Of a stretch of DNA of 64,000 bases, positions 56,180 through 60,288 are shown piece after piece. Below the pieces are notes generated by a model. That model was not told the DNA's origin. It did no database searches and was given only the letters and a program-made list of their open reading frames with translations. The DNA is taken from assembly GCF_022458985.1 (NCBI RefSeq), contig NC_061771.1, positions 14,547,001 through 14,611,000 on the forward strand. The letters run 5' to 3'. The position numbers were made by a program, and so were the translations under genes. Each line of letters starts with the position of its first letter. The stretch's first letter is position 1. Source of the DNA: Mugil cephalus. Its lineage: Eukaryota > Chordata > Actinopteri > Mugiliformes > Mugilidae.

Positions 56180-59100
56180 TCACTTTTGGCTGGACTCTGA
56201 CTTGGATGTGGATGCTCTCAGAGAAGAAAGGCGACGCCTCTTTGCAATCTGTTCCTGGCGCTTCTCCTTGGCCTCCTGTTTAGAAGAGAAAAAAAAAGTC
56301 AACCAGAATGTCTCTACATGTTGAAAACATCAGTCCCCCCAAAGCATGTGAATGTCCCCTATTACCCAATACACCATTACATATGTTCTCCTTAAACCAA
56401 ACAGGATTTTGCAACTCTATCAACTACTGATTTCTGTAGAGCAATGCATTCAATACAGCAGTTCCAGTGTTATTTTCAGCATCAACTAAATGTTCCTGTC
56501 AGAGGTATTGTATGATTTACATTGGCTTTAAGCTCAGACAAACAGGACACGATACCCCACAATTTATCCAGGGAAGCTTCTTCCAACATTCAAACTTTAA
56601 GTAGGAAACATTGAGCTAAGCTCCACCACTAAAAGCAATGTCACTGAGCCCTTTTTAATCAGTGGTTATGCGCCGTTATGTGATGAAGAGAAGCCAAAGC
56701 GAACAAACCTTCATCCTCTTAGCCAGCAGCTTGGCGTACTCAGAGGCCTCCTCCTTGTTCTTCTGGGTGCGCTGTCTCTTGAGGGCAATGCGGCGGCGCT
56801 TGTGCTGCAGCACACGGGGCGTCACCAGTCTCTGGATCTTGGGGGCCTTAGTTCTGGGCTTCTTGCCTGTCGAGGTGAGTGGAGAGGGACAGTTAATAAA
56901 TGACACGTGAGGTTACGAGATTAGAGATCATGCACTTTCAAATTTGTTCATTCAACAATGACCAGTTTGTGGCCAATTGCAAATGAAGGCTGTACAATTA
57001 TTCTGCAAAAATAAATAAATTTGGTTGAGACTTGTTTGAATTGCCTCTCTTCTCCACATTCATCAGCCACCACTGAAAATGAGAATAACCTGCAGCTTTT
57101 AATTTTACTGAGTCAAGTTTCTAATCCAAACACTTTAATCTGTACAACCATGACAAGTCCCAAAGGAAAATGTCACTGACACTGCAGAAAATAAGCTACA
57201 GTCTGTCACTATAGAACATACAGCATGATATTTAAACACTATACAGGGACTCTGAATACTCTTAGGGCATTGTTGGCCGGGGGCACAGATATGAAAGGGA
57301 AGTTAAACTGGTGATTTGATTTGAGTTAAAAAAAAAAATTAAGAACCAACAACAATCCGAGGGGGGAAAACACTATCAAGAGGATCATTTCCAAATCCTC
57401 CAACTAGACACATGATTTTATTCGTCAATAATAAAGTTCTGCAAGTCTAACAAGTAAAGATAGAGAGCTGTCACACCTGCCAAATAAAGAGGAAATAACT
57501 CCATTTTCAATGTCCCATGATAAATGACATGATGTTAGTCGAACCAACAGGTTCATTTGTATAGAAATGAATTAAAAGCCTGTTTTTCTAGAATTACAGA
57601 AAATGTTTGATGATTTCACTAAGAGTTTAAGATTTTTTTCCATTATTCAAGTGTTGTGTGGATCATTGAGTAACAGGCACAGACAGCCAGTGATGACCAA
57701 ATCCATGTTCAGTCAAACGAGCCAGTCATTGATCCAAAGGCCTAAGGACAAATCAACAGGGAAAATACAGCTGTAGTCTGACCTTCTTTAGTCAGGGGTC
57801 TCCTCACGACGTACTGCCTAACGTCATCCTCCTTAGCCAGGTTGAAGAGCTTGCGGATCTTGCTGGCCCTCTTGGGACCAAGACGGCGAGGGACGGTGCT
57901 GTCGGTCAGCCCAGGAATGTCCTTCTCACCTGAGGACACGAGTCAATAAATATCAACTGTTAATTAACGAATTCCTTTTCCTTTTGCCGTCTGTACCAAA
58001 AACATATTGAATGATGCCTAAATGTACAATCAAAATCATGAATTTTGTTTAACATTACATCATACTAAAATCAAAGTTAAGAAAAGGCAGAGGGACACCG
58101 GGTGTTTACTTCCCCACTGAAAAGGGATCTAAAGCCCACAGCAACTGATAATGACCCGTCCCCTCCAACCTATATTATAACAGGAAAACTCCACATGAGT
58201 GAATGAAATAAACCATTATTCCCAAAAGTTTTGCTCGTTTTAAATTTAAGTGCATGTAATACTCTTAATAAACAGACGACAATGATTTCTCCACGATACC
58301 TGTGAACATAATGGGAGAGCAATGCAGTTCAACCATCCACTGTTACTCGGCCTGGTTGCATCTGGTAAAGCAGCTCCACAGTTACTCTGGCAACACGCTG
58401 TCCCCCCTTAATGACTACGGACTAATCAGAAAGGGTCTACTGGTGTGCCATCCACATAGCTCTCCATTAAACTTGTTCAGGGGAATTTAGCCTAATAGCA
58501 AAATGGCCTAAGACATATTTTGACTTACTGTTAAAATATTAACAAAAATACCAATGTGCTGGCTAAAAAATAGTAAATTTTTTCTTCTTTTATGAAAATG
58601 TTCAAGTATGACTTAGGCAATTATGCTGTTAGGCTTACAATATGTATAACACTAAACAGAAATGTCCTTATGCGCCATGTTACACGTTGTACCTTTCTTG
58701 ACGATGACCAAGTTGAGAACGCTCAGGTTGGCATCAACGATGCAACCGCGGACAGACTTGCGCTTGCGCTCGCCGGTCCTGCGGGGACGGTAGCAAGAGT
58801 GGCCCTTGCTGAGCAGCAGGCGCACACGGCCGTGGGTCAGCACACCCTGCTTCATGGGGAAACCCTGCTTGTCATTGCCTCCGCTGATGCGCACCACGTA
58901 ACCCTGAAAAGGCAAAGCACAAAAACATCAACTCACTATAACATCACGATCCCGAACTAAATCACTTGCATAATGTTCTGAAATGAAGCGACTGTAATAA
59001 ATTAACCCGACACGTTTGTCGAATTAGGAACATCCAATGCCTGCCCACTTAGTCGATACACATGTTTGTTGGTCTTAATTTTGTAAGAGCTCACATGGAG

Positions 59101-60288
59101 CTGTGCATAACCTACTAAACTTTGACGCGACATAATGACCTGAAGTCTTTATCCAACCAAACTTTTGCTAAAACATTTCCTTCCACATCTACTACAAAGT
59201 AACCTCTTTGCACTTGTTAAGGAGTGGGAGAGCAATGCTGTTGCAATCGACCACAGGGTATATGGTCCGGTTGCATCTGGTAAGCAGCTCTGCTGTTCCT
59301 GTGGCAACACGCTGTCCCCCCTTAATGACTACGCAAAGTCAGAAAGGGTCTACTGGTGTGCCGTGCTCACGTTACAATGCGACATATCAAAGAATACCAG
59401 TTACACCTACAGTGAAGGCACAGTGAACGTCAGGTCTTACCTTCCACTCATCTCCCAGAGGGTCAGCAGACACCTCGGTGGCCATGCGCTTCTCATAGAA
59501 AGTACGCAGCTTGCGTTCATCATCAACTTCGATCAGCTTCTGGCAGCCAGTAGCGGGGAATGAGATGTTCAGCTGCAGGAATAAAAAATAATGGGGTTAA
59601 CAATGGCGTTTGTATGAAACAAATTTCGTTTGTATGTTGCACATACAAACATTTATATGAACCTTTAATCTAAATAGATGCTGAGGCTCACACAGATCAT
59701 ACGTTAACACAAATCTCTGTCCTATCCCATTCAAATAGATGTTGGTAGATAGCAAAAGCTATGTAATATTAACTTCCCAGAGTGTTATCACTGGGCAAAA
59801 ATAAATTCTCCAAAGACCCAGAGATGTGGCTATCTGAGCGGAGCTAAAGTTTCAATCAGATGGAGATACGGTGGCTACAAGGCCTGTTAGCTTCAATGCC
59901 GGCAGGTTCAAATCCTGCTAATGTTAGCCGTACACACCGCTGGCAATAATATACGCGTTTTTACTGAGCTGGCGTTATCAGACAGTAAAGCAGCACTGTA
60001 CAACCTTGCCGTAAAAACAATTAAATGCTTTATATCACAGACAACCACGGCTTGAACTCCATGCACATTTCTCCAAGTGTGCGGCCATGTTTCTACAGCT
60101 CACTTTCCGAGAGGCTCCTCGGCTAACTCTCATCACAATCAAAGCTCATCCTGAGCCGCGGAGCCACCATTTCTACATTAAACTAGCACGCGTTAGTGTC
60201 CAAAACCAGAGCTTTAATAGTTCTGAAATATTTCACAAAGAATTGTAACATACAGATAAAAAAACTCAGGGGAACATTGTACCTTCAT
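56180..60288 (-). CDS. rps6: 40S ribosomal protein S6 (eS6)
   Basis: Small-subunit ribosomal protein and main target of S6 kinase; 249 aa, exactly the human length. Exons (minus): 60283-60288, 59441-59572, 58693-58903, 57783-57929, 56709-56866, 56180-56275. Only ATG-AAG lies in exon 1, as in other vertebrates. Conserved blocks: [96 protein letters not shown]. The C-terminal phosphorylation cluster [19 protein letters not shown] is intact (S235/S236 equivalents). A few substitutions against human ([23 protein letters not shown]) are conservative. Introns 2 and 3 each carry a structured RNA segment (separate entries). Confidence 0.98.
58312..58450 (-). ncRNA. Candidate H/ACA-like snoRNA, copy 1 (rps6 intron 3)
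   Basis: About 139 nt, sense to rps6. 5' hairpin: lower stem GGCA-CAC with GTG-T-TGCC, internal loop, upper stem CCCTT/AAGGG and TGATTA/TAGTCA. Hinge AGAGTA fits the H box ANANNA. 3' hairpin: lower stem GAGC-TGC with GCA-tt-GCTC, loop CTTTACCAGATG, upper stem CAACC/GGTTG. A related segment lies in intron 2 with compensating changes. A clean ACA box three bases before the end is not visible, so the class is inferred from size, two-hairpin form, hinge and intronic sense position. Confidence 0.55.
59225..59363 (-). ncRNA. Candidate H/ACA-like snoRNA, copy 2 (rps6 intron 2)
   Basis: About 137 nt, sense to rps6 and clearly related to 58312-58450. 5' hairpin has the same lower stem, CCCTT/AAGGG and TGACT/AGTCA. 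Hinge ACAGGA fits ANANNA. 3' hairpin keeps GAGC-TGC/GCA-tt-GCTC and has an upper stem with GACCA/TGGTC. An ACAGCA lies near the 3' side but inside the predicted lower stem. The two strongest shared blocks are ATGCAACC and ACCAGTAGACCCTTTCTGA. Confidence 0.55.

Follow-up and report, generated by a model that had tools for sequence, protein, structure and literature searches.

Introns 2 and 3 of a fish rps6 gene each contain a block of about 140 nt that, judged by its sequence, is a homologue of SNORA58 (ACA58), and in both blocks CCA stands at the place of the ACA box. The two blocks are likely to be intron-encoded H/ACA guides that would direct pseudouridylation of the 28S rRNA uridine equivalent to human position 3823, with the CCA box working. 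The window, here and below, is the whole 64-kb stretch of DNA that was analysed (64,000 nt), and all coordinates refer to it. Published sources are cited by PMC identifier, with 'excerpt' marking those available in part.

The rps6 gene and its two SNORA58 homologues

The host gene was recognised from a 249-aa translation of six joined minus-strand exons, separated by GT..AG introns, which is matched by eS6 in the PDB across 249/249 residues. Intron 2 is 537 nt long and intron 3 763 nt. Upstream of the gene, an A+T-rich near-perfect palindrome can be seen by eye at about 60535-60576, and a divergent plus-strand gene from about 61567 resembles what we take to be alkaline ceramidase (acer), presumably also a neighbour of rps6 in human. 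The gene and the two blocks are placed as follows:

56180..60288, minus strand: rps6 coding span (249-aa spliced translation, PDB eS6 matches)
60288-60283, 59572-59441, 58903-58693, 57929-57783, 56866-56709 and 56275-56180, minus strand: rps6 exons 1-6
59222..59363, minus strand: SNORA58 homologue in rps6 intron 2, 142 nt (RF00418 positions 1-136, 45.2 bits)
58309..58450, minus strand: SNORA58 homologue in rps6 intron 3, 142 nt (RF00418 positions 1-136, 66.0 bits)

The initial annotation had described a pair of paralogous RNAs in introns 3 and 2, sense to rps6, and this is borne out by blastn. With intron 3 as query against rps6 introns 1, 2, 4 and 5 (E up to 1), intron 2 was matched over 140 columns at 83.6% identity (E 5.2e-35). 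Identity between the copies rises and falls sharply at both borders of this block, outside which the two introns gave no alignment, and the block begins 77 nt from the 5′ splice site in one intron and 242 nt in the other. The query had a second match, of 17 bases, in intron 5 (E 0.24); a scan of introns 4-5 for SNORA58 at E up to 10 found no match to this segment. The similarity was taken as chance.

A scan of 4227 Rfam families against the whole window, the kind of covariance-model search that the initial annotation had proposed, assigned both blocks to SNORA58 (RF00418), the intron 3 copy at 66.0 bits (E 3.2e-10) and the intron 2 copy at 45.2 bits (E 2.7e-5). Each covers the model from end to end (1-136 of 136), and the runner-up family in 56500-62500 reaches only E 4. 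Both scores fall below the curated gathering score of 75 bits, and for this reason a default scan misses both copies and reports two tRNAs only from the window. The earlier proposal of an H/ACA snoRNA pair is upheld by the full-length SNORA58 match and by three points described below: an ANANNA motif 16 nt from the guide pocket, guide strands that fit the reported target on assumed 28S letters, and recurrence of the RNA next to antisense exon 2 of rps6 in further contigs.

Several other elements were seen in the window. A tRNA-Ser gene (anticodon cga) lies at 52459-52540 and a tRNA-Ile gene (anticodon aat) at 25339-25415, both on the plus strand. A minus-strand match to MIR5998 at 30013-30095 (E 1e-8; 54 bits, where the cut-off is 180) covers nearly the same stretch as a plus-strand mir-318 match below its cut-off (E 0.016); the stretch is perhaps a hairpin-forming repeat. 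Weak SCARNA7 matches, far below cut-off, occur at 21656-21832 (plus strand, E 0.0098) and 18782-18932 (minus strand, E 0.022). A 208-aa frame at 8594-9220 on the minus strand has 66 relatives, mostly hypothetical or uncharacterized proteins by name; for 15 of these an organism is named, in every case what we take to be a ray-finned fish, which agrees with the window being fish DNA.

Guide pocket, fold and predicted 28S target

In both copies, hairpin 1 holds a pocket with AGUAG on its left side and GGGACAG on its right, and the guide strands are identical between the copies. The elements are:

59350..59354, minus strand: 5′ guide strand AGUAG, intron 2 copy (five pairs, after one mismatch, with 28S letters that we take to be CUACU)
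59312..59318, minus strand: 3′ guide strand GGGACAG, intron 2 copy (seven pairs with 28S letters that we take to be CUGUCCC, just 5′ of the target U)
59297..59302, minus strand: H box ACAGGA (ANANNA), intron 2 copy, 16 nt from the 3′ guide strand start
58437..58441, minus strand: 5′ guide strand AGUAG, intron 3 copy
58398..58404, minus strand: 3′ guide strand GGGACAG, intron 3 copy
58383..58388, minus strand: H box AGAGUA (ANANNA), intron 3 copy, 16 nt from the 3′ guide strand start

In both copies the H box starts 16 nt after the right guide strand begins, and a spacing of 15-16 nt is given for eukaryotic H/ACA RNAs (PMC7991803, excerpt). Identity between the copies is unevenly distributed: the two sides of the pocket agree at 19/20 and 21/21 columns, the apex of hairpin 1 at 17/21, the hinge with the 5′ base of hairpin 2 at 26/32, the apex of hairpin 2 at 16/27, and its 3′ base with the tail at 19/23.

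Pairing with rRNA was assessed against the target stretch (CUGUCCC and CUACU) as we take it to read in 28S. On these assumed letters the right guide forms seven pairs, a mismatch and one more pair, and the left guide five pairs, preceded by one mismatch next to the upper stem. With the pocket of the Rfam consensus, the same letters give nine right and four left pairs, and the outer right-guide mismatch of the copies is absent from it. On these letters, the rRNA complementarity that the initial annotation had suggested seeking in the loops would amount to 7 + 5 pairs, with the mismatch beside the stem. The target letters were not found in the prokaryote genome contigs, viral contigs or papers searched, and a pattern for the pocket-region DNA had no match in viral contigs. 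The exact duplex is provisional because its target letters rest on an assumed 28S stretch and on published site assignments.

As to those assignments, 28S-Psi3823 is the site listed for SNORA58 (PMC12931454, excerpt), and human ribosomes surveyed by mass spectrometry are tabulated with Psi at 28S 3823 and a value of 66, which we read as per cent (PMC6182160, excerpt). A bovine study disagrees, predicting 18S 1608 and 28S 2930 for SNORA58 (PMC12427106, excerpt). Following the other sources over the bovine prediction, we provisionally regard the fish pocket as fitting the 28S site equivalent to human Psi3823.

The plan of two hairpins, hinge and tail is present in both copies, as seen in the Rfam structure alignment and the folds of hairpin 1, and the two-hairpin fold with an ANANNA hinge proposed earlier agrees with the RF00418 structure alignment and with the H boxes AGAGUA and ACAGGA. 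Folding energies differ between the copies. For hairpin 1, 16/1000 shuffles were as good in the intron 3 copy (z -2.52) and 5/1000 in the intron 2 copy (z -2.89). Hairpin 2 of the intron 2 copy stands out similarly (10/1000, z -2.72), whereas that of the intron 3 copy is not better than its shuffles (382/1000 as good, z -0.24). For the whole molecules, 49/200 shuffles were as good for the intron 3 copy (z -0.69) and 2/200 for the intron 2 copy (z -3.08).

The initial annotation had also described upper-stem pairs that change together between the copies, which our comparison contradicts: among 21 pairs of hairpin 1, 19 are the same, one changes on one side (U-G to C-G), one is lost, and none changes on both sides. 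When the Rfam consensus is the reference, the 28 pairs of the intron 3 copy comprise 18 unchanged, one one-sided, four two-sided compatible and five broken pairs, and hairpin 1 of the intron 2 copy shows three two-sided compatible changes and two broken pairs; these alignments are fitted to the model structure, and the counts are biased towards the model.

The terminal box and its relatives

At the place of the ACA box, both copies carry CCA in the cmscan alignment:

59225..59227, minus strand: CCA, intron 2 copy
58312..58314, minus strand: CCA, intron 3 copy

A box H/ACA RNA requires, three nt from its 3′ end, ACA or one of its alternatives, which are given as AUA, AAA and AGA, the adenines being most conserved (PMC7991803, excerpt). 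Because this one defining box H/ACA feature fails, the copies are filed as a variant: SNORA58 by descent, outside the strict box rule, and most likely working in the manner of an H/ACA guide.

To find relatives, protein databases were queried with the antisense reading frame of the intron 2 copy. From 17 candidates, the first search gave five proteins (P0067-P0071) with an E value no higher than 1, and antisense rps6 exon 2 is present in all five. Three of them (P0067, P0068 and P0069) contain both guide motifs; by eye, P0071 has part of the RNA, from beyond the right guide onwards and with the left guide changed, and P0070 starts too near the exon for presence of the snoRNA to be judged. Compared by eye with the antisense frame of the window itself, P0067 also has antisense exon 3 at its start, so the RNA there sits between exons 2 and 3. 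P0067, P0068, P0069 and P0071 are probably antisense readings of rps6 exon 2 and partly of the snoRNA, not real proteins. A profile of four antisense frames added five more proteins (P0072-P0076) among 71 candidates. From the exon letters the RNA can be assigned to intron 2 alone, and P0072-P0076 are counted as carriers of the RNA whatever their host gene.

AAGGGGGGACAG and CAGTAGACC are both codon-compatible in 8/10 proteins, with P0070 and P0071 failing both; the second search, which gave P0072-P0076, was seeded with guide-region words and with pieces of P0067 and P0068, and guide conservation is partly built into it. CCANANNA, 15 nt before the start of the right-guide motif, is possible in six of the eight (P0068, P0069, P0072, P0073, P0074 and P0076), a count limited by P0067, which lies outside the reading at this place. 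P0075 disallows it (CC changed), and there ANANNA alone is possible when checked by hand. P0072 is close to P0067 and P0068, the contigs may stem from closely related species, and we suppose all of these relatives to be fish.

The absence of a clean ACA, which the initial annotation had conceded as its weak point, recurs in these relatives. CCA is found in five of eight readable copies, namely the two of the window and P0074, P0075 and P0076, and ACA is possible in none of the eight (two window copies, six relatives). In the three relatives with CCA, the antisense frame has a Trp codon at the box, and since Trp is encoded by TGG only, CCA is fixed there. The box of P0069 can be UCA or GCA only, and those of P0068 and P0072 are limited to U- or G-first triplets, provided that the register is correct. 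P0067, P0070, P0071 and P0073 were left out of the count, the place being uncovered or the register not assignable. An open antisense frame does not explain CCA, because ACA in the Trp frames would encode Cys and be equally open. The box region of P0075 and P0076 contains none of the five-residue query words, whereas that of P0074 does contain such words.

CCA has been reported in an H/ACA sRNA of Pyrobaculum calidifontis, as one single variation in its family, and was likened there to the 3′ end of tRNA (PMC4652768, excerpt); among the matches listed in our literature search, the phrase 'CCA box' was found in that paper only. The archaeal RNA resembles the fish copies in having CCA at the place of the ANA box, and differs in being archaeal and a lone variant. 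Our tentative suggestion, plausible though short of probable, is that a fish SNORA58 lineage lost the near-fixed first A and keeps CCA (with some U- or G-first boxes), and that dyskerin reads the tRNA-like CCA end on a working guide.

Proposed function, alternatives and known SNORA58 genes

From the observed homology, hinge, spacing, pocket, contig recurrence and CCA box, we infer the following mechanism. The two RNAs, if expressed, would be released when the rps6 pre-mRNA is spliced and trimmed, and would assemble with dyskerin, NOP10, NHP2 and GAR1. In hairpin 1, GGGACAG and AGUAG would pair on either side of the 28S rRNA uridine that corresponds to human 28S-3823 and direct its conversion to pseudouridine, while hairpin 2 would serve in assembly and the CCA 3′ box would still be bound by the PUA domain of dyskerin. 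The two copies are most likely redundant guides for one 28S pseudouridine. In favour of such guides are the full-length Rfam matches, the ANANNA at 16 nt, a near-identical pocket against a diverged hairpin 2 apex, the published assignments of SNORA58 and its chicken homologue to this 28S site, and the same RNA, read antisense, in other contigs. Against them count an ACA that is impossible in 8/8 copies, the sub-cut-off scores, the fold of hairpin 2 in intron 3, the guide mismatches, the left guide motif that P0071 disallows, and the other SNORA58 sites predicted by the bovine study.

Some of these same points would suit a family in decay, in which the blocks are dead SNORA58 copies, unexpressed for want of an ACA box, and the working SNORA58 lies elsewhere, for example in ubap2l. 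The CCA in place of ACA, the Rfam scores below cut-off and the weak hairpin 2 of the intron 3 copy are what such copies could look like. We nevertheless consider decay unlikely: the guide strands are identical although the rest of introns 2 and 3 is unalignable, three further contigs have the RNA, with its two guide motifs, adjoining antisense exon 2 of rps6 (as does one more, judged by eye), and CCA is found again in three other contigs. That working H/ACA RNAs might instead have their true ACA slightly downstream, beyond an extended hairpin 2 base, is suggested by an ACA that begins 10 nt from the start of CCA in intron 2 and, by eye, 11 nt from it in intron 3. At the ACA frequency of these introns, one would occur by chance in 12 positions with a probability of 0.25, and identity between the copies falls right after CCCA. 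At those offsets ACA is impossible in P0074, P0076, P0069 and P0068, where 18 nt are readable (9 nt in P0075 and 7 nt in P0072). The downstream ACA was rejected as the true box, since it is not kept in the four relatives readable far enough, and we hold this arrangement to be very improbable.

Least probable, by a little, is a role in cis, with structured intron elements serving splicing or output of rps6 in the manner of snoRNA-host control, not rRNA. It would suit a published report that human snoRNAs interact with their hosts more frequently when these encode ribosomal proteins (PMC10324135, excerpt); however, the conserved parts are the rRNA pocket and hinge, and the distance to the 5′ splice site differs between the copies (77 and 242 nt).

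Copies of SNORA58 are described in UBAP2L, MRPL3 and NDC1, with the UBAP2L copy traced to the amniote ancestor and those of MRPL3 and NDC1 arising later, in a reconstruction based on Rfam 10 annotation (PMC3511168, excerpt). A score cut-off like today's would presumably have hidden such fish copies from it. The fish copies share with SNORA58 their length, two hairpins, pocket sequence, full-model alignment and, in the intron 3 copy, the H box AGAGUA, and differ in lying in two adjacent introns of rps6, in having CCA and not ACA, and in their sub-cut-off scores. Compared by description only, they resemble chicken GGgACA6 from UBAP2L intron 14, the 5′ hairpin of which is predicted to guide the snR9/ACA58 28S site (5+6 nt); GGgACA6 differs in being a single copy in another host and in its two extra predicted sites, 18S-120 and 28S-1612 (PMC2653536, excerpt). 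By function, the copies would also correspond to yeast snR9, which is given as the functional homologue at this LSU site (PMC2653536, excerpt).

A literature search, weakened by the poor searchability of 'H/ACA', found no paper describing an intronic H/ACA RNA hosted by rps6, and 'rps6' is absent from the main text of a zebrafish snoRNA-host paper (PMC6954239). Among the SNORA58 matches listed, no title or abstract start names a fish. Fish SNORA58 copies may already be in print or in a genome browser; what is new here is the fish rps6 home of SNORA58, a host unnamed for it in the literature searched, together with the recurring CCA box.

These copies place SNORA58 in a fish, beyond the amniotes of the published reconstruction, and in a host encoding a cytosolic ribosomal protein. 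They also illustrate that real homologues can score under a curated Rfam cut-off and be missed by default scans. The first A is missing from both copies of this one gene and from every readable relative, so the strictness of the ACA box can be tested here on natural material, and a CCA-box lineage, if true, would loosen the accepted eukaryotic definition of that box.
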